Positions 152 through 17,704 of a stretch of DNA of 64,000 nt are shown here, one piece after another; position 1 is the first letter of the stretch, and each line of letters opens with the position of its first letter. Under the pieces are notes generated by a model. It saw only the letters and a program-made list of their open reading frames with translations, was not told the origin of the DNA and did not search any database. The position numbers and the translations under genes are program-made. The DNA comes from Burkholderiales bacterium (GTDB lineage Bacteria > Pseudomonadota > Gammaproteobacteria > Burkholderiales > Burkholderiaceae_C): contig JACRNC010000021.1 in NCBI GenBank assembly GCA_016219375.1, positions 1 to 64,000 on the forward strand, read 5' to 3'.

Positions 152-954
152 ATGAAATGTCCCGTTTGTGGCGCGCCGAGCTGATTCGGTGCGTCCGCGA
201 CATGACCTTCGAGTACAAGGGGAGGACCACGACGCTGCCCAGCGTTGAGGGCGATCACTGCCCCGTTTGCAAGGAGGCTGTGCCGGACGAGGCAGAAGGG
301 GACCGCGTGGCGGAGTTGGCGGGCCAACTCATCCGCGAGGTTCGGGCCAGTCTCGGCGCTCCAGACCGCCCCCAACTGCTAGACGGGCCGGCCCAAAAAC
401 AAAGCCGGATCGTTGAGTCGGGGAAAGGCCCGACCGATCCGGCTCTGGCCGCTGCAGCGACAGCCACAGACGACACGAATATTTTTCCCGACCCAGCCGC
501 GGCAAGTCAACCACAAAGCACTGGAACGCCCCCTGCTCCAGAGTTCGGTACCCCGAGCGAGGCCAACGATCATGAGGAGGTCGCTCCACGCGCAGCCCTT
601 GCGACTGTAGACACCAAGGGCAGCGATACCAGCGGGATGGACTGTCGCCCGACGGGCGCGTGGCGCAACCGGCTGTCAATCTATGCTTGGCGCCTCATGC
701 GGTCAACCCGTTCGATGCGCATAACCCGCAAGCCAGGCCTGCAGTCGTTGGCCGCGACAGTGGGGTCTTCGACAGCACAAAGGCAACGGGCTCGCAGTGC
801 GAGCCCGGGCCTCTCACTACTTCCGATAGCGGGGGAACAGAATCCTTCCCGCTTAGCCAGTGAGCAACTTGCCGAAATCGTACTAGAAGATTTCAGCGAG
901 GGTCAACACGCCGACAAGCTGCGAAGGATTCGTTGCCGGTGGAAGGCCAAATAG
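152..954 (+). pseudogene. Frameshifted MqsA/YgiT-type zinc-finger antitoxin remnant
   Basis: The ATG at 152 follows a strong ribosome-binding site and reads MKCPVCGAPS, then stops at 182-184. Moving to the frame open from 157 restores the match: ELIRCVRDMTFEYKGRTTT, then CPVCKEAV. This is the N-terminal zinc-binding domain of MqsA (two CxxC motifs and the D-x-TYKG core). One G is missing in GCGCCGAGCTG relative to an intact gene. After about residue 65 the frame continues to 954 with Ala/Pro/Ser-rich sequence and none of the expected C-terminal HTH, so the 3' part is also lost or replaced. MqsA normally neutralises and represses the MqsR RNase; this copy cannot make a full protein. The zinc-finger identification is secure, the nature of the tail is not. 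Confidence 0.55.
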
Positions 955-1331: not shown

Positions 1332-3188
1332 TCACGGCTGGGGCCCTGGCGTGGCCGGCGCTCTTGTACGGGCGATATGGGCGGTCACCACCACGAAGCG
1401 CAGCAGCAGCCACCAAGCGTACAGGAAGTCAGGGCTAAAGAATGCTCCGTCAGGCACCAAACCATGGGCAACCTGGTTGCGCAGGTTGCTGCCCAGCGGC
1501 TCGGCCAGCAGGTCCTGCAGTTGGAACACGCCAGCTGCGCCAAAGGCGTGTCTCGCCTCGGCCGAGTCGAGAAGAGCCGCCAGGGTGCGCTCTTCTTGCG
1601 TGCCGTCGGGTTTGAGCATCGGGCCTGGCCCACCGGCCAGCTCCACCGCCTGGCGGATGACCGCCTCAAGCTGCATGGGCACCATGTGCCCCGCCAACAG
1701 CATGTCGCCATGGAACCCCGCCACCAGAGCCCGGGTGATGCTCTCGTGGTGGCCTTCAGGGATCCACGGGCTGTGGCGGGTCAGGCTCATGACATCGGCA
1801 CGCGCAGGCGCATGCTCATGCAGGATGGCCTTGCGCGCGGGCTCTATCACCACCCCCGCCGTGATGCTGCGAGCCATGCTCGCGCAGTGAAACATGCGCC
1901 ACCGCAGGGCTGGCACTGCCGGGTCTGTCATCCCCCCCTCAAAGCCCGGCACCTTCGTCACCACCCGTCCCTGGGCGTTGACCACCTCCGTGGGCATGAG
2001 GTGGCTCAGCGGGGCTACCCGGGCTTGTTGCTCTACCTGGCTCCTCAGCGCTTCAAGGCTGGGCGGCCGGGTCAGCTTGCAAAACGCCATCACAGCATCA
2101 CTGAAAGGCTTGCTGCTCACCCGGCGCGAGGCCGCTTGGATCTCTGCAGTCACGTCGACGCTGGTAGAAAAGCTCTCAAGCTCCGTCACGGCCTGTTCCT
2201 GCAGATCGATCAGCCGACGGCCCAGCTCATCCGCCCGCTCCTTCCCTCCTGGAGCTTGGCGCATCGCCTGGACGGCGCTGGACAGCATACTGGCCGCCGC
2301 CATCGCTCCGCGCCCTGGCTGGCCCAGCACTGCGTCCGCTTCCTTAACCAGGGACTCAGCAGCCGCGCGCCGGTATGCGCCCTCGTCGTCTGCCAGAGCA
2401 GCTGCGCGACAGCAGTCCGCCGCGAGGCCGAAGTAGTCGCTGGCGCGCCGGAAATTGCTTTCGCCCTCCGCTCCCTGCGCAGCAATAGCGGAGTACTTAG
2501 CCAGCTCGACCGCGTCACCGAAGCGGAACTCCAGCAGGATCTGCGTCAACTGCTTCGTGAGGTAGAGCGGATCCGCTCCACCGTACTGGCGGACGACGCT
2601 CAGGGCTTTGGCCAGCGCCAAGTCCTGCAGTTCCTTGCCTGACCGGCCGAGCGAGGCGGCTATGCGGACGGCGCGCTCCAGCCGATCGGCAAAGTCGGTC
2701 CAGTGTTCGGGGTGGAGCAGGTGCTCCGCGCTGATCAAGTAAGCCGTCACGGCTTCCTTGGCAGCCGGAAATTGCTTGCCGCCTACCCAGATCACGTCCA
2801 AGAAGCGAGCACGCAGCTCGGCATCCTGCAGCGTGGAAGCCCACGGATGAATGTCCACCAGCATCTCTTTCGAGAAGTCCCCTGGCAGGGCGCTCCGCCG
2901 ATCTCCGAACTGAAACATCGGACCGAATGGCTCCGACGGCTCCTCGGGGCGCAATCTCATCTCAGTGACCTGCACCGCGAAGTCCAGGCACGCTGCCTGT
3001 GCCGGCGGCCAGCGATCCGGCTCTCTCCTCAAGCTGATCAGGTGCTGGCAGAAATCGAAGCAGCGCCGCGGCTCCACGTGCTGCAGCAGCTTCTCCAGCT
3101 CCAGGGCCTGGAGAGCGTCCGGTGTAATGAGCATGCAGTCCGGCAGCATGGTGTTGTGCGCTGCTGCGGTTTTCGAGGAGCTTGTCAA
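1332..3188 (-). CDS. DUF4209-type protein with HEPN-like RX4H motif
   Basis: A 618-residue, largely helical soluble protein and the last gene of the minus-strand defence operon, 45 bp after res. The C-terminal block LAEPLGSNLRNQVAHGL followed by YAWWLLLRF is the signature of the DUF4209 C-terminal domain. Within it R570 and H575 form an RX4H motif (RNQVAH), the catalytic pattern of HEPN ribonucleases. The family is poorly characterised; a role as a toxic RNase effector or partner of the adjacent restriction genes is inference. The 5' end is uncertain: TTG at 3188 gives the longest product, while ATGs at 3149 and 3134 are alternatives, none with a clear ribosome-binding site. No signal peptide or membrane segment is seen. 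Confidence 0.7.
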   Translation of the reverse strand: MTSSSKTAAAHNTMLPDCMLITPDALQALELEKLLQHVEPRRCFDFCQHLISLRREPDRWPPAQAACLDFAVQVTEMRLRPEEPSEPFGPMFQFGDRRSALPGDFSKEMLVDIHPWASTLQDAELRARFLDVIWVGGKQFPAAKEAVTAYLISAEHLLHPEHWTDFADRLERAVRIAASLGRSGKELQDLALAKALSVVRQYGGADPLYLTKQLTQILLEFRFGDAVELAKYSAIAAQGAEGESNFRRASDYFGLAADCCRAAALADDEGAYRRAAAESLVKEADAVLGQPGRGAMAAASMLSSAVQAMRQAPGGKERADELGRRLIDLQEQAVTELESFSTSVDVTAEIQAASRRVSSKPFSDAVMAFCKLTRPPSLEALRSQVEQQARVAPLSHLMPTEVVNAQGRVVTKVPGFEGGMTDPAVPALRWRMFHCASMARSITAGVVIEPARKAILHEHAPARADVMSLTRHSPWIPEGHHESITRALVAGFHGDMLLAGHMVPMQLEAVIRQAVELAGGPGPMLKPDGTQEERTLAALLDSAEARHAFGAAGVFQLQDLLAEPLGSNLRNQVAHGLVPDGAFFSPDFLYAWWLLLRFVVVTAHIARTRAPATPGPQP

Positions 3189-3233
3189 GGTAGAACCGAA
3201 GCCGGCAGTAACCCAGCTGGAGAACCTCTTCCC

Positions 3234-6200
3234 TCAGAAATCTGCCGTACTGAGGACGTCCATCAATGACCTTGCGACCACGTACTTTGCAGGATTCTCC
3301 CCAACTGCGAGGGCCCTAAAGTGCGCCTTGCCGCACTCAATCTTGGCGCTCTCCTTGTTGCGCAGGTCGTCGGTGAACAGGCTGCTCTTGGTCTCGACCA
3401 CGAAGTACAGGCGCCGGGTGCCGTCCTTGTTGACCAGCACGGCCCAGTCGGGGTTGTAGCTGCCCAGAGGGGTGGGCACCTTGAACCAGCCGGGCAGCTT
3501 GGCGTACAGCACCACGTCGTCGTCCTTCTCCAGGGCGTCGGCGAAGTCGCGCTCGGTGGCTGAGTCGTAGACCACGTGCTCGTAGATCGAGCGCTTGGTG
3601 TCCCGCAGCATGTTGGTCAGGTAGCCGGTCAGCTCCTCGGTCTCGAACAGCTCCTGGGCCCAGACGGCGTCGTCGCCCAGGCGCTGGTAGCGGATGCCGT
3701 CCACCAGGGCCATGCGCTTGCAGCGGTTGATGATTTCCGCCGCCTGCTCGATGAACTGCTGCGGGTTGCGCTTGAAGTCGTCCAGCCGCTCGCACTCGGT
3801 CAGGATCTTGACCAGCGTGCGCCGCGTCAGCTGCGTGCGGTCCTGCAGGTCGGTCAGCAAGTCGGGCAGCTCGATGTCGGCCTCGTCCAGAACAACGGTC
3901 GCCGCACCTTTCACCTCGGTTGCATCTACGCCGGCCTTGCCGATGCCGATCTCTGCCTTGCGCCACTGCAGCCGGGCGCGGGCGATGTGCAGGTCACGGG
4001 TCAGCGCGGCCGTGCAGTCGCGGATGAGCTTGTCGTTGTCGAACTGCACGCGGTACGTGGTCTTGTGCTTGATGCGGTCCCACAGCGCCTTGAAGTCCTC
4101 GCTCAGCGTCACCGCCTTGCCGTCGGCGCCCTTGCGCAGCGGCACGGTCTCGCGGTCGTCGCGGTTCTTCACCTCGACGCGGCCGGTCACCTTGCGCAGC
4201 AGCTCGGCCACCTGGCCCCGGTAGGGCTCGAAGGCCTGGGGCAAGGCCAGCTTGCCGTCCTTCAAGGCGACCTTCAGCGAGTCCTGCACCTTGCCCTTGG
4301 CGTCGATGTGCCCCGCAGCGCGCAGGTGGTCCCACAGGGCTTTGGACTGGTCCACGCCCAGCGGGGCCACCTTGCCGTCGGGCGTGGTGATGGCGATGGT
4401 GGCGAACTGGTGCTGCTCGACGATGCCGAAGCGGATGCCCGTGTCGGCCTCGATCTCCTTCTGCAGCTGGTCGGCGAACTCCTGGTACGACTCGGTGGCA
4501 ATCACTGTCAGCCGGTTCACGTCGTGCCCGTAGACGCGTTGCCCGTCCTGGTTGACGCACAGGCGCAGGCCCCGGCCCAGGGTCTGGCGGCGCTCGCGCT
4601 CGCTGCCCATCTCGCGCAGGGCGCAAATCTGGAAGACGTTGGGGTTGTCCCAGCCTTCCTTCAGGGCCGAGTGGGAGAAGATGAACTTCAGCGGCGTGCT
4701 GAAGGTGAGCAGCTTCTCCTTCTCCTTCATGATGAGGTTGTAGCCGCGCTCGGCGTCGGCGCGGCTGGTCTCGTTCTTCAGGCCGCCTTCCTTGTCCAGT
4801 TCGGGGTCCGCCCAGCGGCCCTTCTTGTCGATGGAGAAGTAGCCGTCGTGCACGGCGGCGGCTTCCTGCGCCAGGTCCACCTCGCCGAACAGGCTCTGGA
4901 ACGCCGGCAGCTTGGCCGCGCGCCGATACTCTTCCTCGAAGATGCGGGCGTAGTCGCCCTTCACCGGGTTGCCGTCCTTGTCGTACTGGCGGTAGCGCGC
5001 CACCGACTCGATGAAGAACAGCGACAGCACCTTGATGCCCTTGGGCCGCAGCAGCTTCTCCTTTTCCAAGTGCTCCTTGATGGTCCGCCGGATCATCTCG
5101 CGCTGCACGGCCAGGGCATCCACCTCGCCGTGGGCCTGTCCCAGGGCCAGGTAGACCTCGCCGCCTGGGTAGCGCAGCTCCATGAACTCTTCGCCCTTGG
5201 CGGTATTGATCTCGCCGACCCGAAAGTCGGCGTACACCGCCCGCTTGGCCAGCTGCTGCAGGTCGTCGCCGTCGTTGACGGTCAGCACCTGCGGCTTGGC
5301 GCCGGTGGCCGTCTGCACGTGCAGTTCCACCTTGGCCGAGATGCCCTTCTTGTTGCTCACCTCCAGCAGTCGCACGTAGGGCTTGTTGAATGCGTCCTCG
5401 ATGGTGGCCGCTGCCACCTCGATCTGTTTGACCAGCTTGCGCTCATAGGCGTCCACCGCATCCAGCCGGTACACCATGTGGTGCTTGTTGGCGTGGGTGG
5501 CCGAGTAGCGCAGGGTGCACAGCGGGTTCATCGCGTCCAGCGCGGCCCTGCCGGCGCCGCTGAGGCCGCCGTCCACGCTCTGCGGCTCGTCCACGATGAC
5601 GATGGGCCGCGTGGCGCGGATCAGGTCGATGGGCTTTTCGCCGCCCGTCTTCTCGCTGTCCTTGTAGAGGTTGTTCACCTCCTTCTTGTTGATGGCGCCC
5701 ACCGTCACCACCATGATTTGGATCGTGGCGCTGGTGGCGAAGTTGCGCACTTGGCCCAGCTTGCTGGAGTCGTACAGGAAGAAGTCCACCGGCACGCCGG
5801 CATACATGCTCTTGAAGTGCTCCTCGGTGATCTGCAGCGACTTGTAGACGCCTTCCTTGATGGCCACCGACGGCACCACGATGACGAACTTGGTGAAGCC
5901 GTAGCGCTTGTTCAGCTCGAAGATCGTGCGCAGGTAGACGTAGGTCTTGCCGGTGCCGGTCTCCATCTCGACCGTGAAGTCGCCCGATGCCAGCGTGCTG
6001 GACGGCGCCAAGCCATTGCGCAGCTGCACACTGCGCAGATTGTCCAGCAGCTGGTCATCTACCAGAGTCAGGCGGTTGCCCAGGCCCTTGTCGGTGTCTG
6101 CCACGCCCAGTGTCAGCTGCTGGTCTGGCAGCTTCATGGTGACGGTGAACTCGGTGCGGCAGGTCTCCTGGCCTCGGAACAGGTCGCAGACCGACTCGAT

Positions 6201-6245
6201 GGCCTGGAGCTGGTAGTCCAGGTTGGGCTCGAAGTGAAGCTTCAT
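3234..6245 (-). CDS. res: Type III restriction enzyme, Res subunit
   Basis: A 1003-residue translocase and nuclease subunit of a type III restriction-modification system. It would use ATP to move along DNA and cut between two inversely oriented unmodified sites, in complex with Mod. Visible superfamily 2 helicase motifs are Walker A METGTGKT at residues 94-101, the VDEPQ box, YSAT, the motif with SALKEGWDNP, and motif VI GRGLRL. Near the C-terminus PDWAV (about 932) and VETKS (about 951) give a PD-(D/E)XK nuclease core. The start chosen is ATG 6245, 11 bp after the mod stop; the frame runs open further upstream but only through mod. Length and motif order are normal for Res, so it should be active. 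Confidence 0.92.
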   Translation of the reverse strand: MKLHFEPNLDYQLQAIESVCDLFRGQETCRTEFTVTMKLPDQQLTLGVADTDKGLGNRLTLVDDQLLDNLRSVQLRNGLAPSSTLASGDFTVEMETGTGKTYVYLRTIFELNKRYGFTKFVIVVPSVAIKEGVYKSLQITEEHFKSMYAGVPVDFFLYDSSKLGQVRNFATSATIQIMVVTVGAINKKEVNNLYKDSEKTGGEKPIDLIRATRPIVIVDEPQSVDGGLSGAGRAALDAMNPLCTLRYSATHANKHHMVYRLDAVDAYERKLVKQIEVAAATIEDAFNKPYVRLLEVSNKKGISAKVELHVQTATGAKPQVLTVNDGDDLQQLAKRAVYADFRVGEINTAKGEEFMELRYPGGEVYLALGQAHGEVDALAVQREMIRRTIKEHLEKEKLLRPKGIKVLSLFFIESVARYRQYDKDGNPVKGDYARIFEEEYRRAAKLPAFQSLFGEVDLAQEAAAVHDGYFSIDKKGRWADPELDKEGGLKNETSRADAERGYNLIMKEKEKLLTFSTPLKFIFSHSALKEGWDNPNVFQICALREMGSERERRQTLGRGLRLCVNQDGQRVYGHDVNRLTVIATESYQEFADQLQKEIEADTGIRFGIVEQHQFATIAITTPDGKVAPLGVDQSKALWDHLRAAGHIDAKGKVQDSLKVALKDGKLALPQAFEPYRGQVAELLRKVTGRVEVKNRDDRETVPLRKGADGKAVTLSEDFKALWDRIKHKTTYRVQFDNDKLIRDCTAALTRDLHIARARLQWRKAEIGIGKAGVDATEVKGAATVVLDEADIELPDLLTDLQDRTQLTRRTLVKILTECERLDDFKRNPQQFIEQAAEIINRCKRMALVDGIRYQRLGDDAVWAQELFETEELTGYLTNMLRDTKRSIYEHVVYDSATERDFADALEKDDDVVLYAKLPGWFKVPTPLGSYNPDWAVLVNKDGTRRLYFVVETKSSLFTDDLRNKESAKIECGKAHFRALAVGENPAKYVVARSLMDVLSTADF

Positions 6246-6256
6246 CGCATCGGCCC

Positions 6257-8143
6257 TCACAGACTGCGCACGTTGGCGATGCCGTTCTGCTCCAGGATCG
6301 CGGCCATGTTGGTCTTGGCAACGTCGTCGGCGAATGCGCTGTCGCGGAACACGCAGGTGGTGTCGCCGGCTGGCGCCAGCTCCTTGTGCCAGGCAATGAT
6401 GCCCTGGGCGAGGGGCTCGACATCGCTGGCCTGAATCTGTGGATCCAGGCAGGCGATGAGCACGCCCCCAGCAACGCTCCGAAGCTGCTTGCCAGCGACA
6501 GTTCGGGCCTGCATTGGCACGCAAAGGTCGAGACCGAGCTTCAGCAGAAGTTCTGCCAGAACGTCGTCGTCCGTGCGGTCAGGCAGAAGGTGTTCTGCGT
6601 GAGCCAGCAGGGTTTCAGCCATGCCGTCCGCTGCTGCGTTCCAAGCGCGGATGTTGGACGAGTCCAGCTTGAAGACGCGGAAGCCAACGTCGCCGCCGAA
6701 TAGCGGGTTCTCGGCCTTCACCTTCGTGGCAGCGCGACGAATGCGTTCCTTGGTCAGCTCCGCAATGTTGCGTGGCTTCTTCAGCTTGTCGCAGAGGGCG
6801 GCCCCGGCCTTCTGGGCCTTGTCAGACGGATCTAGGGGCTCAGGAAGCTGTACGCAAATGAAGCGACGCGAGTGCGAGTCAAGTGCGTTCTGAGAGATTA
6901 CGGCATGAGCGGTAGTGCCGGATCCCGCGAAGAAGTCAAGTACGCAGTCATCACCAGACGTTGCAGCTCTAACAAGTTGCGAGATTAGCTCTACTGGCTT
7001 CGGATACGAAAATACGTCGGCAAGCTGCAGGCTCTCAAGGTCCTTTTTGCCTTCTTCCGAGAGTACCTTGACGATCGAGTAGAGTTTCGAGCTCGCCTCG
7101 TCAAGTGGGATCCGGCGACAGATGGCGTGCATTCCGTTTTCCCACTGATGGAGGAAGTACTCGCCCGAGGCGAGTTTCTGGTCGATCTCAAGCTTCTTCT
7201 CGACACCCTTATAGCTTTCAAGTTGTTCATAGAAGCAGCGCCTATCGCCATCGCTTTTGTCGTACTTGCCGAACTGCTTGCGCACCACATCGTCATCAAT
7301 CAAGAATTCCTTCCCGTCGATGAACTGAGTGCGGCCCTGCACTACCTTGTCGCGCCTGAGTGGCGCACACTTCTCCGAATCGCGAGCTACGACCAATATG
7401 TAGTCATGTCCCTTGACGATGTGACGCGCTTGACCGCCACCCTTTGCGCGCTGGTGAATGAGCGAACCGATCAGGCATTCCTCTCCAAAAAGTTCGGCAA
7501 GGATTTGCCGGACGTTTGCGAACTCAGTGTCATCAATGCTCAGTAGCAGATAACCATCTGGCCGAAGCAATGTCCGGGCAACGCGCAATCGCGCGTACAT
7601 CATGTTGAGCCAATCGGTGTGGAAACGTCCGCTTGCCTCAGTGTTGCTGCTGATCTTTCGTCCACCTTCAGCTTGCCCCGTTAACTCCAAGTAGTTCCGG
7701 ATGCTGTCCTGAAAGCTGTCGGGATACACAAAGTCTTTGCCCGTGTTGTATGGCGGGTCGATATAGATCAGCTTCACTTTGCCGGCGTAGCTCTTCTGAA
7801 GCAGCTTCAACACTTCAAGGTTATCGCCCTCGATCATCAGATTCTTCGTGGTATCCCAGTCCACGCTTTCGTCCGGGCAGGGGCGCAGCGTGCCAGTGCT
7901 GGGCGTCAAGGCCAGTTGCCGCGCGGCACGCTTGCCGTGCCAGTTCAGGCCGTACTTCTCTTCGGCATCGGTCACCGTCGCGTCGCCCACCAGCGCCTTC
8001 AGCACATCCACATTGACGGCCGGGCCGTTCGGCCCCTCGGTCACCAGCTCAGGGAACAGGGCCTTGAGCTGGGCCACGTTGTTGGCCACCAGGTTGGCGG
8101 ATTGGGCCTCCGGGCTGGCCGCTTCGATTTTCTGCATCGTCAT
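6257..8143 (-). CDS. mod: Type III DNA methyltransferase, Mod subunit
   Basis: An N6-adenine DNA methyltransferase that also provides the recognition domain for the type III complex. DPPYN (motif IV) lies at residues 129-132 and the SAM-binding FAGSGTT motif comes late, near residue 410. This DPPY-first order with a recognition domain between is the beta class typical of Mod. Start choice: ATG 8143 (MTMQKIEAA) has AGGG about 7 bases upstream, whereas the longest frame begins at 8170 directly on the rloB stop with no such site. The gene is 11 bp upstream of res and 27 bp downstream of rloB, consistent with co-transcription. Confidence 0.9.
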   Translation of the reverse strand: MTMQKIEAASPEAQSANLVANNVAQLKALFPELVTEGPNGPAVNVDVLKALVGDATVTDAEEKYGLNWHGKRAARQLALTPSTGTLRPCPDESVDWDTTKNLMIEGDNLEVLKLLQKSYAGKVKLIYIDPPYNTGKDFVYPDSFQDSIRNYLELTGQAEGGRKISSNTEASGRFHTDWLNMMYARLRVARTLLRPDGYLLLSIDDTEFANVRQILAELFGEECLIGSLIHQRAKGGGQARHIVKGHDYILVVARDSEKCAPLRRDKVVQGRTQFIDGKEFLIDDDVVRKQFGKYDKSDGDRRCFYEQLESYKGVEKKLEIDQKLASGEYFLHQWENGMHAICRRIPLDEASSKLYSIVKVLSEEGKKDLESLQLADVFSYPKPVELISQLVRAATSGDDCVLDFFAGSGTTAHAVISQNALDSHSRRFICVQLPEPLDPSDKAQKAGAALCDKLKKPRNIAELTKERIRRAATKVKAENPLFGGDVGFRVFKLDSSNIRAWNAAADGMAETLLAHAEHLLPDRTDDDVLAELLLKLGLDLCVPMQARTVAGKQLRSVAGGVLIACLDPQIQASDVEPLAQGIIAWHKELAPAGDTTCVFRDSAFADDVAKTNMAAILEQNGIANVRSL

Positions 8144-8170
8144 GTGTTTCATCCCTGCAAGCGCAGGCAA

Positions 8171-8848
8171 TCAGTCTTTCAAGTGCACGAGCCGCGAGAC
8201 GAGTTCGTGCATTGCTGTGTACGGTTGGGTGCCATCAAAGGCGTTGGTGAGCTCAGCCAGGCGATTCGCACGCGCCGTGGCATCGTCCAATCGGGCCTGC
8301 GTGGCTTGCCAATGGCCGCCGCCGCCCTTCTCGTAGCCGGGCAGATGAGCTTTCAGCCGCTCCAGCGCCTGGTGCCGGTGCAGCGGCGCCAGCACGTCTT
8401 CGAAGTGCAGCAGCAGCCAGAGCTCGAAGCACGGCACCGAGGCCACGGCCTCCACTGGCACAGCCACCTTGTTGTCATTGCGAAGCTTGCCGCTCTGCGC
8501 TGCAGCTTGGGCCAGTGCGGCGTGGTAGCTCTGGTGCTCGTCGCGGTCGAAGACTACGATGATCCGGTCGAACTCCTTGGCGTGAAGGCCACGGTCCCGG
8601 TCCCCCTGCTTGAAGACGGTCAGGGCGTACTCCAGCACCTGCTGCGGCTCGGTCCCGAACTGGCTGTGAAGCACCTGAACATGGGCCGTTGCCAGTCGGT
8701 AGGCACGCTGAATTTCACACAGGTACTGCGGCTCGGTCTTCTCGCCTTCGCAGACGATCAGCAGCCGCTCATAGGGCTGCCGCACGGCTGCACGCCGCTT
8801 CAGGTCTCGCGCGGCCTGCCGGTGTTTGGGCTGGTTGTCCTTCCCCAT
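8171..8848 (-). CDS. RloB-like TOPRIM-related protein
   Basis: A 225-residue protein of the RloB family. LLIVCEGEKTEPQYL near residue 30 and VVFDRDEH near residue 100 match the conserved glutamate and D-x-D elements of the RloB/TOPRIM-like fold. Members are found beside AAA15 ATPases in restriction loci and correspond to the second gene of AbiL-type abortive infection pairs. Its start is 4 bp after the stop of the ATPase gene, so the two are translationally linked. The expected role is the nucleic-acid-acting effector of the pair; that is family knowledge and inference, since no substrate is evident. Confidence 0.82.
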   Translation of the reverse strand: MGKDNQPKHRQAARDLKRRAAVRQPYERLLIVCEGEKTEPQYLCEIQRAYRLATAHVQVLHSQFGTEPQQVLEYALTVFKQGDRDRGLHAKEFDRIIVVFDRDEHQSYHAALAQAAAQSGKLRNDNKVAVPVEAVASVPCFELWLLLHFEDVLAPLHRHQALERLKAHLPGYEKGGGGHWQATQARLDDATARANRLAELTNAFDGTQPYTAMHELVSRLVHLKD

Positions 8849-8852
8849 CGCT

Positions 8853-10121: not shown

Positions 10122-10147
10122 GACCCATCTCCTCATGAACAAGGAGT

Positions 10148-10249
10148 TCATTCTTGCAGAAAATGTTCAAGATAGGCATCAATATTCGGTGAAGAATTGC
10201 GGATGTTCCCCCTAGCAACACTACGGGTCCAACCCTGGGTCCGCGCCAT
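10148..10249 (-). CDS. Possible 33-residue small ORF or gene-tail remnant
   Basis: The 138-bp gap between the DUF4391 gene and the ATPase contains an ATG-started frame of 33 codons whose end reads NSSPNIDAYLEHFLQE. The composition is like a real protein C-terminus (helical, no shadow-type Arg/Pro bias). It may be the tail of a gene lost when rloAB was inserted, or a small leader peptide. No family is recognised and no clear ribosome-binding site is seen. Confidence 0.25.
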   Translation of the reverse strand: MARTQGWTRSVARGNIRNSSPNIDAYLEHFLQE

Positions 10250-10259
10250 CGCGGTGCGT

Positions 10260-11084
10260 TCATAGCTGCGCACGGGCCGCTCTCAGGCGGGCATCCAGCC
10301 GTTGTAGTTCCAGATTCAGGTCCACTTGCTTGGCGATCTGTCGTTCCTTGGCGGCCAGGCTACGCAGGCGTGCCGCTTCTTGTTCCAGTCGTTGGCAGGC
10401 TCGCAGCGCGTCACGCTGGGCGGCGGCTGCGGCGGGGCCGCTGGGCAGGCGGAAGTTGCCGGTCAGGCGGGCGGCCTCTGCAGCGGTCAGGCAGTCCATC
10501 CAGCCCTGGTACAGGGCCATCAGGTCTCGATGGGGCTGGCGGTCCAGTGCCAGCGCCTCCAGCAGCGGGGCCACCACGGATGCGGCGGCGCTATCGGTGC
10601 CGAGCAGCTCGGATCGGACCAGCTCACCGTCGAGCACCACCTTGCCCGCTTCGTTTTGGGCAGCGCGCTTGTGCGCGAGGCTGAGGGCGAGCTGGGTCGG
10701 CGGCGTCGGCGTCGAGTCCTCGGACGCTGCTGCGGCGCCCGGCGTCAGCGCTTGGATCAGCAGCACGGGGTAGGGCACTGCCCGGTGCACCAGCTCGGCC
10801 AACCGCAGCCACTGCGATGCCTTGCCATGGGTGGCACGCACCTGCACGCTGAGCACGGCCACTTCCAGGTACTCGCGCCCGTCGGCACGGTGCTCCGGGA
10901 TGGCCACGGTGCCGGGCTTCAGCGCAGCGATCCACTGCAGCTCCTCGATGCCGTCGGTCAGCAGGCGCCGGTCGGCCGCCGTCGGCGCGCCGTGCTCGGC
11001 CAGCATCTTCTTGGGCACGCGCTGGTCCACCCGGCAGGATGCGGGCAGGCGGAGTGCCTCGACCAGCTCGGCAACGCCCAGCAC
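10260..11084 (-). CDS. DUF4391 domain-containing protein
   Basis: A 274-residue protein with the DUF4391 pattern: LPASCRVDQRVPKKMLAEHG near the N-terminus, DGIEELQWIAALKP, then LVHRAVPYPVLLI. The last ~60 residues (LEQEAARLRSLAAKERQ onward) are a charged helical, probably coiled-coil, tail. The GTG at 11084 is chosen because GGAGG ends 6 bases upstream and the protease stop is only 2 bp away. DUF4391 proteins recur beside SNF2-like helicases and type III Mod/Res genes. Their biochemical role is not established; a specificity or bridging subunit is a guess. Confidence 0.8.
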   Translation of the reverse strand: MLGVAELVEALRLPASCRVDQRVPKKMLAEHGAPTAADRRLLTDGIEELQWIAALKPGTVAIPEHRADGREYLEVAVLSVQVRATHGKASQWLRLAELVHRAVPYPVLLIQALTPGAAAASEDSTPTPPTQLALSLAHKRAAQNEAGKVVLDGELVRSELLGTDSAAASVVAPLLEALALDRQPHRDLMALYQGWMDCLTAAEAARLTGNFRLPSGPAAAAAQRDALRACQRLEQEAARLRSLAAKERQIAKQVDLNLELQRLDARLRAARAQL

Positions 11085-11086
11085 GG

Positions 11087-13417
11087 TCAGCCTCCGACGC
11101 GTGCGCGCGCACGCTGCTCGACGCGAGCCCGAAGGAGGGCTTGAATCTGCGCGTACAGACGCGATTGGACGTTGGCCCGGTCGGCAATGCTCACGCAAAG
11201 GGCGTAGGGCTCCAGGTCGTCGTTGACGGTCGACCAGGGGGCGTCTTGGCGGGTCACCACGATGAACAGCTGCCCGCGAGGGCGCTGCTTGAAGGTCCAG
11301 CGAGACACCTGCAGCGTGCCAGCCTGGCGTGCCTCGCCCGACAGCCAGCGGCTGTTGCTGCGTTCGGACATCCCCTCGTCGCGGTTGCGCTGAAAGGCCG
11401 CTGCCACTTCGTCCAGATTGTTGGCCACGACCAGATTGAACTTCAGCTTGGTCATGCGATAGTCCAGCCGCGTGGTTCGCACCACGGGGCTGTAGGCCAG
11501 GGCAACGGTCACCTCCCGAGTGCGTCGCCCGCCTTCCCAGAATTCGTCCGGGATGGGGACCGCGTAGAACTGGCAGCGGTCGTTGCCGATCTGCTCTTCG
11601 CAGATCAGCGACACGACGTTGTCGAGCGACTGCTCCAACGCATGGTCGTTGATGCAACCGTAGCCGACCAGGCGCGTGAGCTTCTCGCGGCCTTCGGCGT
11701 TGTCGTTGGGGTTGAGCAGGGGGACCGATGGGTCAGGCCACTTGGCATGGGCGCCCAGCAGCGCGCGCAGCAAGTTGTGGCTGGCGCCGGGCACGCGGCG
11801 CAGCAGCTTGGCCGCCCGGTGGGCAACCGCTGGCGCGGCGAAGCTGGTGCCGACCTCTTCCCTGAAGGCGTGGCCGCCGGCAAAGCCGCCGTTCGTCGTG
11901 ACGACGCCAAGTCCACGATAGGTGGTGCGGCCGGTCAGCCGAACAACTGCCAGGTTGCCGGCATGCTCCACAAAGTCGGGCTTGATGGCACCGTTGACGG
12001 TCGGGCCCGACCTTGTGAGGGGGAAGGGGTGGCCTGTGCGGGCGATGGGCCTATCCTCGATGAGTTCCGGGCGCTGCTGCTGGCCGCGTGTGGCCTCATG
12101 GCGGGCAAGGCCTCCCACCGTCAAAGCGTTCAGCGCCGTGGCGGGGTCTACCAAGCGCGCCCGGTCCTCCAGCAAGTAGTCGGGGAACGATGCCAGTGGA
12201 TCGGCGGGTAGGCCGTCCAGAGAGAGATTCCCGGTAGACACGACGAACACGACACCCAGCTCCCGCGTAAGGCGGTCCAGCGTGTAGGCCAGTCCTCGCA
12301 CATGCCCACCGGCGTAGACCTTGTTCAAGTCGCCATAGCTGAGATTGAAGACTCGGCAGCCGAAGCCAGCGTGCAGGTCTCGGACCGCGCGCTCGACGGC
12401 GTTCTCGACGAATTCTGTTTGGTCGTCACCGTCATGGTTGAACACCCGCCCGGATACCAGGAAGAGGCTGGGCACGAACTCGCCGCTGGCGATTGCGGCT
12501 TCAATGTCACCGTACAAGGCAAGCCCGGCGACTGAGGTGCCATGCCACGGATCAGCGTCGTCCGGGCTGCGATGCGGCAGCACGTAGCCTTGGGCATGGC
12601 CGACCGCCGGAGCAAGCAGCGGCTGGCCGGTAACGAGCCCGGCATCCAGCACGGCGATCCGGGGTGCCTGAGCGTCGGGCTGCGCGGGAGGCGGAAAGCG
12701 GTTCACGTCCGCAGCAACGGTACCAACGGCCACGCCCCAGCGCGGCGGCAGATCTACTGTCCGCGCATCTCGGTAACGAAGCACTTGTTCCGCTGCTTGA
12801 CGGCTACAGCGCAGGCGCACCATGAGCAACGACGCGGAGAAAACCGTGTCGATGATTTCCGCTCCTAGCTCCCCGGCGAAGGCCGTGAAGGATTCCATCG
12901 TGGACTGCCGGCGAGCCGGCTGCTCCTGCGGCCAGAGCTCGACATCCAACGTGCAGAGGCCGTCTTGCGGCAGGCCCTGTTCGGCGAGTGCCGCGCCAGT
13001 CCTATCTTCGGGTGTCCAGTGCTCGAACGCGTCGATGACGAACAGCAGCTCTTTGCGCGTCACTCGCCCGTCACGTGCCAGCGTCGCAAGCCGCTCTTCG
13101 ACCAGGTTCAGCGCTGCCGCCGTGGCAAACGCGAGAACGACCTCGTGCCCCTCCTGGCTGACAACCTCCAGCCCATCGATAAGGTTGAAGTCGGGAAGCT
13201 GCCGCTCGCCCTCGCGCAGGCGGATCTTCAGCAGCTTGCGGTCGTCAAATCCACCTAGGTCCTCATTTGCTGCGACTTCGCGCACTGCGCGAAAGCTCCG
13301 AAGCAAGGCATTGCCGTGGCCTCTAGGGTCCGCAGGCGCAGGTGCGCCGAAGCCGCGGGGCCGATGCCGTTCGGTGACAGGAGACTCTTTTTCTAGTCGC
13401 AGGTGCTCATATGCCAT
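11087..13417 (-). CDS. Subtilisin-like (S8) serine protease, IetS type
   Basis: A 776-residue S8 peptidase. The triad is visible: Asp258 in AVLDAG, His292 in HGTSVAGLA and Ser525 in GTSFAAPA, with Asn396 in STGN as oxyanion residue. About 250 residues precede the catalytic domain and a ~180-residue C-terminal domain follows. There is no signal peptide, so it acts in the cytoplasm. A protease of this kind directly after an AAA+ ATPase matches IetAS, known from plasmid incompatibility/entry exclusion and later shown to protect against phage. It starts 21 bp after the ATPase stop with GGGAGG 8 bases upstream of ATG 13417. All catalytic residues are present, so activity is likely. Confidence 0.85.
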   Translation of the reverse strand: MAYEHLRLEKESPVTERHRPRGFGAPAPADPRGHGNALLRSFRAVREVAANEDLGGFDDRKLLKIRLREGERQLPDFNLIDGLEVVSQEGHEVVLAFATAAALNLVEERLATLARDGRVTRKELLFVIDAFEHWTPEDRTGAALAEQGLPQDGLCTLDVELWPQEQPARRQSTMESFTAFAGELGAEIIDTVFSASLLMVRLRCSRQAAEQVLRYRDARTVDLPPRWGVAVGTVAADVNRFPPPAQPDAQAPRIAVLDAGLVTGQPLLAPAVGHAQGYVLPHRSPDDADPWHGTSVAGLALYGDIEAAIASGEFVPSLFLVSGRVFNHDGDDQTEFVENAVERAVRDLHAGFGCRVFNLSYGDLNKVYAGGHVRGLAYTLDRLTRELGVVFVVSTGNLSLDGLPADPLASFPDYLLEDRARLVDPATALNALTVGGLARHEATRGQQQRPELIEDRPIARTGHPFPLTRSGPTVNGAIKPDFVEHAGNLAVVRLTGRTTYRGLGVVTTNGGFAGGHAFREEVGTSFAAPAVAHRAAKLLRRVPGASHNLLRALLGAHAKWPDPSVPLLNPNDNAEGREKLTRLVGYGCINDHALEQSLDNVVSLICEEQIGNDRCQFYAVPIPDEFWEGGRRTREVTVALAYSPVVRTTRLDYRMTKLKFNLVVANNLDEVAAAFQRNRDEGMSERSNSRWLSGEARQAGTLQVSRWTFKQRPRGQLFIVVTRQDAPWSTVNDDLEPYALCVSIADRANVQSRLYAQIQALLRARVEQRARARVGG

Positions 13418-13438
13418 CCAGTTGCCTCCCTAGGCCGC

Positions 13439-14425
13439 TCAGTGGGGTTGTTGGTATTCCTTCGCCAGCGCAGCCTCTAGGTGAGCCTTGGCGAGGAACT
13501 CACGATTGGACAGGACCATGTCCTTGACGGCGCGGCGAAGCACGCGCTCGATGTCCGCGTGAGACAGACCTTTGAAGAGCGCGGCGATCTTCGAGTCGTC
13601 GGTCTCGAAGTTCCGGCGCACGCCGGACAGCTTCAGGGCCAGCAGGCGCTTGGCCTGCTCCAGGTTCGGGGGCTCGAAGCGGATGACCTCGTCGAAGCGA
13701 CGCCACACTGCCTTGTCGAGCAGGGTCTCGTAGTTCGTCGTCGCAATCAGGATGCTGGAGCCACGGTACCCGTCCATCATTTGCAGCACGGCGTTGACGG
13801 AGCGCTTCAGCTCGCCGTGGTCATCGCTGGCGCCGCGATCCTTGCTCAGGGCGTCGAACTCGTCGAAGAGCGCTACCACGGGACGCACCGACACGTAGTC
13901 GAAGACCTTGCGCAAGTTGGCTGAGGTCTCGCCCAGTAGCGAGGAGATGACGGAGTCCAGGCGAACGACCACCAGCGGCAATTCGAGCGCGCTGGCGATG
14001 ACCTCGGCGGCGAGCGTCTTGCCGCAGCCAGGTGGGCCGCAGAACAGCAGGCGCTGGGCCGGCTGCAGCCCGTGGGCCAGCAGCACGTCGCCGCGTCGAT
14101 GCTCCATCAGCACCTCGTCCAACGCCGACTGCGCGCCGTCGCCGAGCACGATGTCGCTTTCGTCGCGGACGGCTGGCCGCTCTTCGACCAGGGCCAGGCC
14201 GCTGTCCTTATTGATGGGCAGTTCCTTGGCGGGCAGCAGCCGCAGGTGGCCCCGGCCAGAGTTGGCCCGTTCGCCGTACAGCAGCAGTTCCAGGTCATTG
14301 GCGAGCAAGTGATGCTTCTTCTCGCGTTCTTCACGGATGACGGCCTCCGAGGCAGCCTTGAACCCGTCGGAGTCCCCCTCGATGCCGGCCTTGATCAACT
14401 GCCTGAGTAGCTTTGCGTTGGACAT
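13439..14425 (-). CDS. AAA+ ATPase, IetA type
   Basis: A 328-residue AAA+ ATPase with Walker A GPPGCGKT at 130-137, Walker B ALFDEFDA at about 185-192, a sensor ATTNYE and an arginine-finger region (AVWRRFDEVIRF). About 100 residues precede the ATPase core. In IetAS-type defence the ATPase is the partner and probable activator of the serine protease encoded next. ATG 14425 has AGGTGA just upstream and lies 3 bp after the helicase stop, so the three genes are tightly coupled. Confidence 0.85.
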   Translation of the reverse strand: MSNAKLLRQLIKAGIEGDSDGFKAASEAVIREEREKKHHLLANDLELLLYGERANSGRGHLRLLPAKELPINKDSGLALVEERPAVRDESDIVLGDGAQSALDEVLMEHRRGDVLLAHGLQPAQRLLFCGPPGCGKTLAAEVIASALELPLVVVRLDSVISSLLGETSANLRKVFDYVSVRPVVALFDEFDALSKDRGASDDHGELKRSVNAVLQMMDGYRGSSILIATTNYETLLDKAVWRRFDEVIRFEPPNLEQAKRLLALKLSGVRRNFETDDSKIAALFKGLSHADIERVLRRAVKDMVLSNREFLAKAHLEAALAKEYQQPH

Positions 14426-14428
14426 GCT

Positions 14429-17400
14429 TCACCTGTCCTTGTCTGAGTGTTCGTTCCTTGGGCCCCTGCCCGCGTCAGCAGGCAGGACCACCATGAATGC
14501 CAGTACCTCGAAGTCACCGGCCCCGGCGAACTCGCCCTTCATGGCGTGCGTGCCGCCGGGCGAGAACAAGCTGGCGACGGCGCGCTCTTCGGCCTTTCCG
14601 ACCACTGAAGCCACGGCCGAGGCCAGCAGCTTCTGGGCGTGCCGCATGTCCTCGCCTTGGCGGGTCAGCTTGTCGTGGCGGCTGCTGGCGCCCAGGTCGG
14701 GCAGCTCGCGGCCCAGCGCCAGGCGCTTGAGGCGGTCCAGGATGCGCTTGGCCTGAGGGTAGGCGAGCACCGTGGTGCCGTCGTCGCCCACATGGGCCAG
14801 GTAGATCGGCGCCAGTGGGTAGTCGCCGGATCCGGCGCCGGCTGGGGCCTTGCTTGCGCCAGCGCCCTCGGCCCGCAGGCAGAAGATGATGCCGGGCTCG
14901 ATGTCGGCGTCGATGCTGCTCGTGACGGCGTGCGCGCCCAGCGGCATGCCCTCCAGCACCGCCGGATGGTCGCGAAGGAACTGCGCGAGGTCGATGCGGA
15001 AGTCGGTCAGCGTCAGGTCGGTGATCGAGACCCCGCTGCTCAGGTCTTCCATGTCGATGACGGAGTCCTGCAGCTTCAAGAGCTGCTTGCGGCGGTACTC
15101 CAGGTCGTTCATCGGGTCGCCGGACTGTTGCTCGATGAGGTTCTCCTCACCGGTGGCCGACACGTCCAGCAGCACCATGCGCCCGCTGACGCGCTGCTCC
15201 AGATTGATGTACTCGTCGAGCGCGATGTTCGGCCAGAAGTTGACCAGCTGGATGCTGCGGTTGGGCGAGCCGATTCGGTCGATCCGGCCGAAGCGCTGGA
15301 TGATGCGGACCGGGTTCCAGTGGATGTCGTAGTTGATGAGCCAGTCGCAGTCCTGCAGGTTCTGGCCCTCAGAGATGCAGTCGGTCGCAATCAGCAGGTC
15401 TATCTCGCCTTCACCGGCCATGTCGGCCGGGCGCTCTTTGGCGCGGGGCGCGAAGGCCGACAGCACGCTGCTCATGCTCTTGCGCAGGCCGGGCAGTGTG
15501 GTCTGGATGCCGGCGCTGCCGGTGACCAGGGCGGCGTCGATGCCCAGCGTGGCCTTGGCCCACGGCGCCAGGTTGGCGTAGAGGTACTGGGCGGTGTCCG
15601 AGAACGCCGTGAAGACGATGATCTTGCGGTTGCCGTCGTTGATGGGGTGGCGGCACTTGTCCTCCACCATCTCGCGCAGTTTGGCGAGCTTCGCGTCGCG
15701 CGCGGCATCCACCTGCTGAGCAGCGGCCAACAACGTGTCGAGGCGGTTGCGGTCCTCCACCAGATCCTGCCGCCACCGGATGAGGTCCACGTCGCCCAGC
15801 AGCACCTTCACCTTGCGGCCCACCAGCAGCGCCTCGAAGGCGGGGTCGTCGATGTCCACGTCGGCAATGTCCAGCTCTTCGATGCCGTCGCCGTTAGCGG
15901 CCTGGTCGGCATGCTGCTCGATCTGCGCGAGCACAGCCTCCACGTCGCGGAGTTGCCGTTGCAGCGTCAGCGCGAACGACGACACCGCGCTCTCCATGCG
16001 CTTGAGCACGTTCACCCGCAGCAGGTGGATGAGGCTTTCCTCGCGGTCGGCCTGGCGGAAGAAGCTCTCGCCGCCCCGGATCTCGGTGCTGTACTTGGCG
16101 TCGTAGGCGGCCTGCTTGTGCGGCAGCACGTAGCGCAGCGGAGCGTAGGCGGCCAGGTTCAGGCGCCGGATCTCCAGGTTGATGTCCTTGATGGCGCGGA
16201 ACTGGCCCGCGCGGTCCACGTCGGCCTTGATGTTGATGGGCGGCCGGCGGTCTGGAAAGCGGCCGGTCTCCTGCGTGCCGTAGTACTTCTGGATGTGCCG
16301 GCGTGACCGTGCAATGGTCAGGTGGTCCAGCAGGGTGAAGTAGTCGAAGCCCAGCATCTCCACCAGGCGGCTGGGGGTGCGCTCTGTCTCTTCAAGTCCG
16401 AGCCAGCGGTTGAACTGAATCTGCGCCTTGCGCGTGGTTTGCTGGATGCTTTCGATGCCGTAGTCGGCCAGCGCCGTGTCGTCGCCTTCGGTGGCGAAGG
16501 CGATCTGGTTGCGCAGGTCGGTCAGCCGGTTGTTCACCGGGGTGGCCGACAGCATCAGCACCCGGGTCTTGACCCCTTCCCGGATGATCTTGCGCATCAG
16601 CCGGTCGTAGCGCGTCTCGGTGCCTTGCCGGGGCGACTTCTTGTTGCGGAAGTTGTGGCTCTCGTCGATGACGACCAGGTCGTAATTGCCCCAGTTCACA
16701 TGGGACAGGTCGATGTCGCCCGAATGGCCGCCGTCGCGCGAGAGGTCGGTGTGGTTCAACACGTCGTAGTTGAACCGGTCCGCTGCCAGGATGTTGCGCT
16801 TGTCGTTGGCCTTGTAGAGGGTCCAGTTGTCGCGCAGGCGCTTGGGAGCCAGAACCAGCACCCGGTCGTTGCGCAGCTCGTGGTACTTGATGACGGCAAG
16901 GGCCTCCAAGGTCTTACCCAGCCCCACGCTGTCCGCAATGATGCAGCCGCCAAAGCGCGCCAGCTTGTCGATGGCGCCGACCACGCCATCCCGCTGGAAC
17001 TTGAACAGCTTCTTCCAGACTACCGTGTTGCGGATGCCGGTGGCCGACTTGACGATGCGCTCCTCGTCCAGCGCATCCTCGCGGCCGCCGAACAGGTGGT
17101 TCAACATCAGCGCGTAGATCGCGAGCGGCGCTCGGTGTTCGCCGATGGACTTCAGTTGGTCGAGCAGTGCCTGTCGCGCGGCATCGGCCGACTCAGTGGC
17201 CGACGGCAGCGTCTCCCATTGCTGGTCGAACCATTGGGCCAGCATGGCGGCTTCTGCAGCGCTCTCCGAGGCTTGCGTCAGGCTCAGCGGGTTGCCGGGC
17301 GTCAGACCCAGCCCCTCCGTGCTCATGGCAACCGAGCCCATGACGACTTGCTTGGGTGTGCCCTGCGCGTTGCGCAGCACGGCCGCGCCTTGCGGGATTC

Positions 17401-17704
17401 GGCCGGGTGCGCGCCGCACCTCCACCTCGCCCTGAAGCCATGCGGCGCACTGGTTTGCCAGCCATCGCGACTGCAGCCGGTTGCGGGCTGCGCGGTCGCC
17501 TTCGCCTCCCTGGATCTCCAGGTCTTGGCCTTCGCCCGGCAGGATGAGTTGCGTCCGGTACAGGCGGATCAGCGCGTCGCGCAGCTCGGCATAGGCATAA
17601 AGCGAGAACGTCGGCGTCATCAACGCTAGCGAGTGGCCCGCGCCGAGTTGCGGCTGCAGCAGGTCAATGGTTCGGTCCAAGCCGCGGTTCTGTATCAGCC
17701 TCAA
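14429..17704 (-). CDS. SNF2-like helicase with PLD-like N-terminal region
   Basis: A 1091-residue helicase-related protein and the first gene of the defence operon. The N-terminal ~130 residues end in VVMGSVAMSTEGLGL, resembling the GSxNxT part of a phospholipase-D-like nuclease domain, but no full HxK motif is seen, so it may be inactive. The SNF2/SF2 core follows: ADSVGLGKT (to residue 265), VVIDESH (347-350), MLSATPVNN, then IATDCISEGQNLQ and QRFGRIDRIG in the C-terminal lobe. The start is a TTG at 17704 with GGAGG 9 bases upstream. It is likely a DNA translocase in the restriction complex, inferred from its partners. Confidence 0.82.
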   Translation of the reverse strand: MRLIQNRGLDRTIDLLQPQLGAGHSLALMTPTFSLYAYAELRDALIRLYRTQLILPGEGQDLEIQGGEGDRAARNRLQSRWLANQCAAWLQGEVEVRRAPGRIPQGAAVLRNAQGTPKQVVMGSVAMSTEGLGLTPGNPLSLTQASESAAEAAMLAQWFDQQWETLPSATESADAARQALLDQLKSIGEHRAPLAIYALMLNHLFGGREDALDEERIVKSATGIRNTVVWKKLFKFQRDGVVGAIDKLARFGGCIIADSVGLGKTLEALAVIKYHELRNDRVLVLAPKRLRDNWTLYKANDKRNILAADRFNYDVLNHTDLSRDGGHSGDIDLSHVNWGNYDLVVIDESHNFRNKKSPRQGTETRYDRLMRKIIREGVKTRVLMLSATPVNNRLTDLRNQIAFATEGDDTALADYGIESIQQTTRKAQIQFNRWLGLEETERTPSRLVEMLGFDYFTLLDHLTIARSRRHIQKYYGTQETGRFPDRRPPINIKADVDRAGQFRAIKDINLEIRRLNLAAYAPLRYVLPHKQAAYDAKYSTEIRGGESFFRQADREESLIHLLRVNVLKRMESAVSSFALTLQRQLRDVEAVLAQIEQHADQAANGDGIEELDIADVDIDDPAFEALLVGRKVKVLLGDVDLIRWRQDLVEDRNRLDTLLAAAQQVDAARDAKLAKLREMVEDKCRHPINDGNRKIIVFTAFSDTAQYLYANLAPWAKATLGIDAALVTGSAGIQTTLPGLRKSMSSVLSAFAPRAKERPADMAGEGEIDLLIATDCISEGQNLQDCDWLINYDIHWNPVRIIQRFGRIDRIGSPNRSIQLVNFWPNIALDEYINLEQRVSGRMVLLDVSATGEENLIEQQSGDPMNDLEYRRKQLLKLQDSVIDMEDLSSGVSITDLTLTDFRIDLAQFLRDHPAVLEGMPLGAHAVTSSIDADIEPGIIFCLRAEGAGASKAPAGAGSGDYPLAPIYLAHVGDDGTTVLAYPQAKRILDRLKRLALGRELPDLGASSRHDKLTRQGEDMRHAQKLLASAVASVVGKAEERAVASLFSPGGTHAMKGEFAGAGDFEVLAFMVVLPADAGRGPRNEHSDKDR

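Follow-up and report, generated by a model that had tools for sequence, protein, structure and literature searches.

Layout of the operon and identities of its products

The window analysed here, the first 64,000 nucleotides (nt) of contig JACRNC010000021.1 from a Burkholderiales bacterium (GCA_016219375.1), contains nine minus-strand genes that fill positions 1332-17704 and that a first-pass annotation had described as a four-gene, type III-like restriction core (helicase, DUF4391, Mod and Res) with two further defence systems nested in it. All nine open reading frames (ORFs) were found in the places given there, and the nine family assignments were reproduced by Pfam and PADLOC taken together, with eight of the proteins matching both libraries and the DUF4391 protein matching Pfam alone. 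The genes are listed in order of transcription, with E-values after family names; junctions 1, 2 and 3 denote the helicase-DUF4391, DUF4391-Mod and Mod-Res borders.

14429..17704, minus strand: core gene 1, SNF2/RapA-type helicase, 1091 amino acids (aa) (Pfam Helicase_C 2.9e-13, SNF2-rel 2.6e-10)
13439..14425, minus strand: junction-1 insert IetA, AAA ATPase (PADLOC IetA 4.5e-99)
11087..13417, minus strand: junction-1 insert IetS, S8 (subtilase) protease (PADLOC IetS 4.3e-297; Pfam Peptidase_S8 5.5e-32)
10260..11084, minus strand: core gene 2, DUF4391 protein, 274 aa (Pfam PF14335 1.3e-61), with a GTG start at 11084 behind GGAGG
10122..10259, minus strand: 138-nt spacer before rloA, the sole sizeable gap of the operon
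8853..10121, minus strand: junction-2 insert RloA/AbiLi, ABC-type ATPase (PADLOC AbiLi 5e-99; Pfam AAA_21 1.2e-39)
8171..8848, minus strand: junction-2 insert RloB/AbiLii (Pfam RloB 6.1e-39; PADLOC AbiLii 1e-27)
6257..8152, minus strand: core gene 3, type III Mod, beta-class DNA methyltransferase (PADLOC MTase_III 3.7e-200)
3234..6245, minus strand: core gene 4, type III Res, superfamily 2 (SF2) ATPase plus PD-(D/E)XK endonuclease (PADLOC REase_III, E = 0)
1332..3188, minus strand: downstream accessory gene, DUF7380 plus DUF4209 (Pfam), PADLOC candidate PDC-S39

The measured gaps agreed with the annotated spacing of 2-45 bp, with 138 bp before rloA: 3 nt between helicase and IetA, 21 between IetA and IetS, 2 between IetS and DUF4391, 138 between DUF4391 and RloA, 4 between RloA and RloB, 18 between RloB and Mod, 11 between Mod and Res, and 45 between Res and the PDC-S39 gene. 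Start codons, among them those of RloA (ATG 10121), Mod (ATG 8152) and Res (ATG 6245), were chosen from the sequence, and motif residue numbers below refer to the longest ORF forms. A consensus scan of the 138-nt spacer found no sigma-70-like site.

Mod and Res are homologous to the subunits of the type III enzyme EcoP15I. Mod is a beta-class aminomethyltransferase, with DPPY (138) preceding FAGSG (414) in the order of that class, and its sequence matches among PDB entries included 6K0W (1.1e-57) and EcoP15I 4ZCF_A (1.9e-56). Res carries SF2 ATPase motifs (GTGKT 100, DEPQ, SAT) and a C-terminal PD-(D/E)XK site (PD 935, ETK 954), and also matched Pfam RE_endonuc (2.3e-36) and EcoP15I Res 4ZCF_C (2.1e-65). 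The helicase (GLGKT 261, DESH 347, SAT 386, QRFGRIDR 803) is homologous to RapA/SWI2-SNF2 proteins by sequence and by fold; RapA was the top Foldseek match (E 7.8e-15) of its AlphaFold2 model (predicted local distance difference test score, pLDDT, 80), with low template-modelling scores for the whole model. An N-terminal GSxxxSxxGLG stretch, with no HxK there, resembles half of a PLD motif, and this region may be a degenerate PLD (HKD) domain, a suggestion helped by the match of the helicase to PADLOC model C3a139 'HKD+Snf2' (3.9e-106). For the DUF4391 protein, the AlphaFold2 model had a pLDDT of 94.6 and a predicted template-modelling score of 0.91, and gave no significant Foldseek matches with the full model as query, the alpha/beta part not being queried by itself. 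No nuclease motif was recognised in this protein, whose best conserved residues are P14, K25, P104, P106, R140 and Y192.

The two nested systems have the gene order and families of IetAS, an AAA ATPase gene followed by an S8 protease gene, and of RloAB/AbiL, an AbiLi/RloA ATPase gene followed by one for a RloB-family protein. IetA has the Walker A motif GPPGCGKT and matched NCBIfam IteA_antiphage (2.3e-74) under the equivalog cut-off; IetS retains catalytic D258, H292 and S525 and likewise scored under the equivalog cut-off for IteS. The motifs GPNASGKS and VLVVDE are present in RloA.

Recurrence of the four-gene core

Helicase-DUF4391-Mod-Res is a real, widely conserved core. First, with the helicase alignment as seed and one genome per species, we took the 80 best-scoring loci out of at least 584 relatives, a sample in which helicases with two conserved peptide patterns are over-represented, and called core genes with hidden Markov models for the four core proteins, counting broken copies. 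The recurrence anticipated in the first-pass annotation was evident: the complete set of four genes was present in order in 61 of the 80 loci, which come from many bacterial phyla. Of the remaining 19, 18 extend no more than 2.3 kb past their last core gene, and one (L054) lacks Res. Second, in a set of 100 loci consisting of the window and L016-L114 (L016-L034 having been found via DUF4391), the order helicase, DUF4391, Mod, Res was present in 77, window included; one locus is permuted and 22 have at least one core gene missing. The permuted locus, L023 (G356:C4), reads Mod, Res, helicase, DUF4391 and has a gene with an ORF6N domain at its Mod-Res junction. Third, plasmid records contained the helicase in 101 cases and Res in 131 (E 1e-60). 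The records listed, 40 for the helicase and 60 for Res, have 37 plasmids in common, many of which are nearly identical to one another; in one record the two genes lie on opposite strands. Finally, of 12 plasmid records with a DUF4391 match, eight were inspected, and all eight have helicase-DUF4391-Mod; their hosts include Paraburkholderia at one extreme and an archaeon, Methanomethylovorans, at the other. Res is truncated in the Desulforapulum plasmid and split by an insertion sequence (IS) in that of Acetobacter.

Within the class, 15 of 369 genomes contained DUF4391 (PF14335), 13 of them over the cut-off, and within the order 21 of 399 contained the helicase, the window's own genome counted in both; the helicase was found in none of 11 other listed genomes of the family. 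Given this scarcity of the helicase in order and family, the operon is sporadic and presumably mobile. Five more loci of the order comprised L136 and L139, with all four genes, L135 and L138, cut by contig ends, and L137, in which an apparent Tn3-type transposase ORF (identified by eye) lies behind DUF4391. The PDC-S39 gene had no relatives in loci L016-L124 and L135-L139 (blastp, E 1e-8).

Inserts at three junctions and their exchange

In loci other than the window, we counted as inserts the same-strand ORFs of at least 200 aa between core genes and found 49 in 35 loci; among the ORFs of this size chosen in the gaps, none lay on the opposite strand. Filled junctions numbered 26 at Mod-Res, 16 at DUF4391-Mod and 2 at helicase-DUF4391, with two or three filled in eight loci; further GmrSD-type genes lie at junction 1 in L136 and in L058 and L022, the last two both cut by contig ends. 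The expectation that many genomes would have different genes at the two junctions occupied in the window was thus borne out at junctions 1 and 2, and the busiest junction elsewhere proved to be Mod-Res, which is empty in the window. We scanned 30 of 63 ORFs (61 of at least 120 aa plus those of L058 and L022), picked as cluster representatives and long ORFs. The contents were as follows.

Junction 1: GmrSD_N in L039, L058 and L136; CBASS cyclase plus a four-transmembrane (4TM) effector in L090
Junction 2: GmrSD in L061 and L078; YhcG in L048; AbiH/DUF4917-like in L019; AAA plus PDDEXK_9 in L083; AAA_13 of the RloC/PrrC kind in L097; AAA_15 in L113; PDC-M32A in L107; DUF4062 in L044
Junction 3: RhuM in L016 (BLAST cluster of 5); Schlafen AlbA_2 in L114 and L136 (BLAST cluster of 5, some links weak); SoFic in L037; DarT plus DarG in L057; AbiD/Abi_2 in L111; HipA_C in L107; Bro-N in L042; PLD in L035; GmrSD in L021; AIG2 in L043; UvrD-like in L045

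PADLOC matches at 1e-8 were found for 19 of the 30 inserts (18 once a weak helicase-model match in L045 is set aside) and for one of ten other window ORFs, a comparison that speaks less strongly for defence cargo in that the 30 inserts were not a random sample and the ten control ORFs were not checked to be genes. Inserts of L022 (a contig-cut fragment), L038, L072 and L090 (6545-8638) matched neither Pfam nor PADLOC; the junction-1 gene of L022 shares 77% identity with its GmrSD_N counterpart in L136. The AAA_13 protein of L097 matched PDC-S06 (7e-217) and PrrC (7.3e-9). A Pfam scan alone of five more inserts gave KilA-N (L026), ORF6N (L023), a D12-class methyltransferase (L113) and two without match. 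Junction 2 of a Citrobacter plasmid (L124) holds an annotated ATP-dependent endonuclease plus DUF2130, and junction 3 of an Aeromonas media plasmid holds an AAA ATPase plus DUF4276 pair. In the same Citrobacter locus (L124, 11096-24413), a WYL-domain gene directly precedes the helicase gene, with a 1-nt overlap.

Multiple observations bear on module exchange. First, one family can occupy several junctions: GmrSD_N occurs at all three, and a YhcG-like and a PLD-like cluster each occur at junctions 2 and 3. Second, we compared filled/empty state changes on a FastTree tree of 77 helicases with those for shuffled labels. Junction 1 gave 4 changes for 4 filled loci (shuffled mean 4.0), junction 2 gave 14 for 15 (shuffled mean 13.9), and junction 3 gave 21 for 25 (shuffled mean 21.4). 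At the depth sampled, junction occupancy changes too fast to trace the core phylogeny, in a test that does not separate gain from loss. Third, IetAS and RloAB are separable units, because both occur alone elsewhere, IetAS on a Vibrio plasmid (L140) and RloAB on a 4,340-bp plasmid (L141) beside three other annotated genes.

The best single case of a swap is L022, whose source genome belongs to a different family within the class; its contig begins within the junction-1 gene, so that no helicase is visible. By blastn, window and L022 are 89% identical from 11065 in DUF4391 to its stop at 10260, 88% identical over the first part of Mod (8152-7590), and 94% identical over 6778-3274, which takes in the remainder of Mod plus Res. 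A first break in homology lies no more than 20 nt from the DUF4391 start, where the window has IetAS and L022 a GmrSD_N-like gene, and a second lies between the DUF4391 stop and the Mod start, which are separated by RloAB and the 138-nt spacer in the window and by ~31 nt in L022. A third break lies in the middle of Mod, where 6778-7590 gave no blastn match between flanks that are 88-94% identical; this part of Mod (6778..7590, minus strand) is presumably the target-recognition region. The fourth falls 40 nt before the Res end, and the loci differ after Res. Modules are thus exchanged at gene borders or near them. In L144 (6871-12980, Enterococcus faecalis), nearly identical flanks enclose a mod piece beside a transposase-like ORF and, after it, another mod ORF that differs from the first; the arrangement looks like allele exchange.

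Two explanations can be set against these results. An accidental defence-island cluster, with unrelated genes adjacent in one genome, has in its favour that defence genes generally cluster; it is contradicted by the shared core order in 77 of 100 loci, the strand bias of 49 to 0 and the swap near gene borders in L022, and we rejected it as scarcely credible. Alternatively, the inserts may be independent defence systems that share operon transcription and have no mechanistic link to the restriction core, with selection favouring co-directional placement for expression and joint transfer. The solitary IetAS and RloAB, the latter even on a 4.3-kb plasmid, the very diverse insert families with no fixed partner, and the apparently random occupancy on the helicase tree all fit this explanation, whereas published restriction loci with wired-in modules, such as PrrC in EcoprrI, make coupling possible; we regard its chances as evenly balanced.

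Interpretation and relation to known systems

We consider it very likely that the locus is an expanded type III restriction-modification (R-M) operon, with helicase, DUF4391, Mod and Res as its core and self-contained anti-phage modules between the core genes. By homology to EcoP15I, Mod would methylate self DNA at its recognition site and bring Res to unmethylated sites, and Res would slide on ATP and cut; in type III systems such ATP-dependent cutting is directed by two unmethylated sites in inverse orientation. As a conserved pair, the helicase and DUF4391 may assist Mod-Res, the likeliest means being translocation on incoming DNA or its remodelling, with DUF4391 perhaps serving as an adaptor; the four core proteins might act as one enzyme. 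The modules (here IetAS, RloAB and PDC-S39), placed between core genes and after Res in the same direction, are presumably co-transcribed and, by analogy with PrrC-EcoprrI and PARIS, likely provide a second layer when restriction fails or a phage blocks it.

Several observations weigh against this reading. L054 has helicase, DUF4391 and Mod with no Res in 6.9 kb of room, and L137 has no Mod within the 4.7 kb from DUF4391 to the contig end. Mod-Res occurs without helicase or DUF4391 in L115 and L116; in the Aeromonas case (L115) an IS interrupts mod, and in Thiodictyon RhuM lies between Mod and Res. In L117, L118 and L147, Mod-Res is paired with a different SNF2 gene and no DUF4391, the hosts being Cupriavidus, Rhizobium (with DUF262 at Mod-Res) and Salmonella (with an IS and an Abi gene before Mod); the alignment between the window and Rhizobium helicases is limited to the helicase motifs (58 bits). 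The Listeria protein at the DUF4391 position, annotated as hypothetical, scored only 26 bits to the DUF4391 model. Forty-three of the 77 tree loci have no 200-aa insert, and inserts are therefore dispensable; several inserts are not evidently defensive (AIG2, DUF4062, KilA-N, ORF6N, the D12 methyltransferase and several without match). Moreover, for a related helicase-Mod-Res system, an active enzyme preparation had no detected additional helicase (PMC8259958).

The four core genes are thus not strictly obligate. The type III pair is the constant part; at least two kinds of front end with a helicase accompany it, helicase-DUF4391 being one of them. Since Mod-Res occurs alone or with an unrelated SNF2 protein, the type III pair is probably the ancestral unit. 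The earlier proposal of a single core with swappable inserts is supported by the recurrent core and the interchangeability of the inserts; it had not foreseen the third, busier junction. The loci in which the different SNF2 family (~950 aa) precedes Mod-Res cover 9044-16991 in L117, 7838-16976 in L118 and 6232-16247 in L147, and this family also comes with inserts (DUF262, Abi); E. coli homologues of this helicase are named mads1 in RefSeq, with a helix-turn-helix feature named there.

Parts of this architecture have been published already: Mod-Res pairs with a further helicase on their 5' side, type I and type III operons that carry toxin genes, and BREX loci with backup modules. Compared with type III R-M of the EcoP15I type (Mod2Res1), the window shares homologous Mod and Res but adds the 1091-aa SNF2 helicase and DUF4391 in front, plus the modules. 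Eco86II and BspHIV represent type III systems in which a further helicase-like ATPase is encoded 5' of mod, an arrangement that the authors counted in more than 500 genomes, and they resemble the window in having an SF2 helicase-like gene upstream of Mod-Res; that ATPase was dispensable for methylation and, again, was not detected in the active Eco86II preparation (PMC8259958). BspHIV differs in having ~140 bp between helicase and mod, which leaves no room for a DUF4391 gene, and the string DUF is absent from the text of that paper (PMC8259958). Two barely related SNF2 families accompany Mod-Res, and the ATPase of these systems may belong to either. Toxin-like genes, repeatedly displaced, are harboured by type I and type III loci (PMC3506569), Abi2/AbiD, PrrC/RloC, RhuM and Fic/Doc genes occur in R-M operons, for which multi-level defence has been proposed (PMC3710099), and type I or type III loci contain eight of 72 RloC genes (PMC2610378). 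Such accessory genes (PrrC/EcoprrI, RloC, HEPN, RhuM, Fic/Doc) resemble the inserts in being mutually displacing toxin or Abi genes between restriction genes, with type III loci named (PMC2610378, PMC3506569, PMC3710099); the difference is that they sit on another core, whereas three sockets on a DUF4391-type core are used here. BREX loci with PARIS-like backup effectors are comparable in nesting second-layer nucleases, proposed to act against anti-restriction, in core loci (PMC12839542). Both window modules match their PADLOC families but are nested in a restriction operon, whereas they stand alone in L140 and L141. RloA and RloB also occur in Campylobacter hsd loci. DUF4391 as a core restriction gene, or a three-socket architecture on it, was not found in the open-licence literature searched, so that priority is uncertain.

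BREX and DISARM were rejected as identities of the operon, the region tested. Its nine proteins contain no PglZ by Pfam and neither PglZ nor BrxC is among the PADLOC matches listed, with BrxH models matching the helicase in part; Pfam likewise found no DUF1998 (drmB) in them, and helicase matches to DrmD/DrmA models were partial and under the NCBIfam cut-off.

How modules and core might be linked is a further question. In a guard model, a module would be latent under the core or would sense anti-restriction proteins, and be freed when a phage disables restriction. There are precedents: EcoprrI keeps PrrC latent until the T4 Stp peptide frees it (PMC2610378, PMC3506569), PARIS is triggered by Ocr and cuts tRNA-Lys (PMC11455837), and related cases are described in PMC3710099 and PMC12839542. 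The match of RloA to AriA of PARIS (1.4e-39), the RloC/PrrC-kind protein at junction 2 in L097, and the AAA ATPase plus DUF4276 pair at junction 3 in Aeromonas media are consistent with such a model; however, AbiLi fits RloA far better than AriA, RloB had no AriB match in PADLOC, and the modules are also found alone. GmrSD and CBASS inserts, moreover, probably have their own triggers. We consider the guard model possible but rather doubtful. More speculatively, and in our view improbably, DUF4391 and helicase could form a docking platform on the type III enzyme that senses stalled or inhibited restriction and triggers the plugged-in effector. If so, the locus would be a modular immune receptor with interchangeable outputs, among them proteolytic IetAS, RloAB or RloC-like nucleases, CBASS, DarTG and SoFic.

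With the expanded type III operon as the preferred reading, a guess from one genome becomes a defined layout that recurs, in which a four-gene restriction core offers fixed sockets to rotating, mostly anti-phage modules; it is present in many phyla of bacteria and on plasmids, one of them archaeal. It points to DUF4391, whose fold was not recognised in the Foldseek search of the predicted full model, as a core restriction component. The natural swaps lend themselves to experiments on a possible wiring between restriction and abortive defence, and the sockets are a place to look for new defence genes, with 11 of the 30 scanned inserts having no PADLOC match.

Two neighbouring genes flank the operon. 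Directly upstream and divergent lies an ORF with a CdiA C-terminal tRNase domain (18087-19790, plus strand; PF18664 2.1e-42). Convergent with the last gene of the operon is a 265-aa ORF (157-954, plus strand) whose N-terminal domain resembles an MqsA-type zinc-finger/helix-turn-helix antitoxin.

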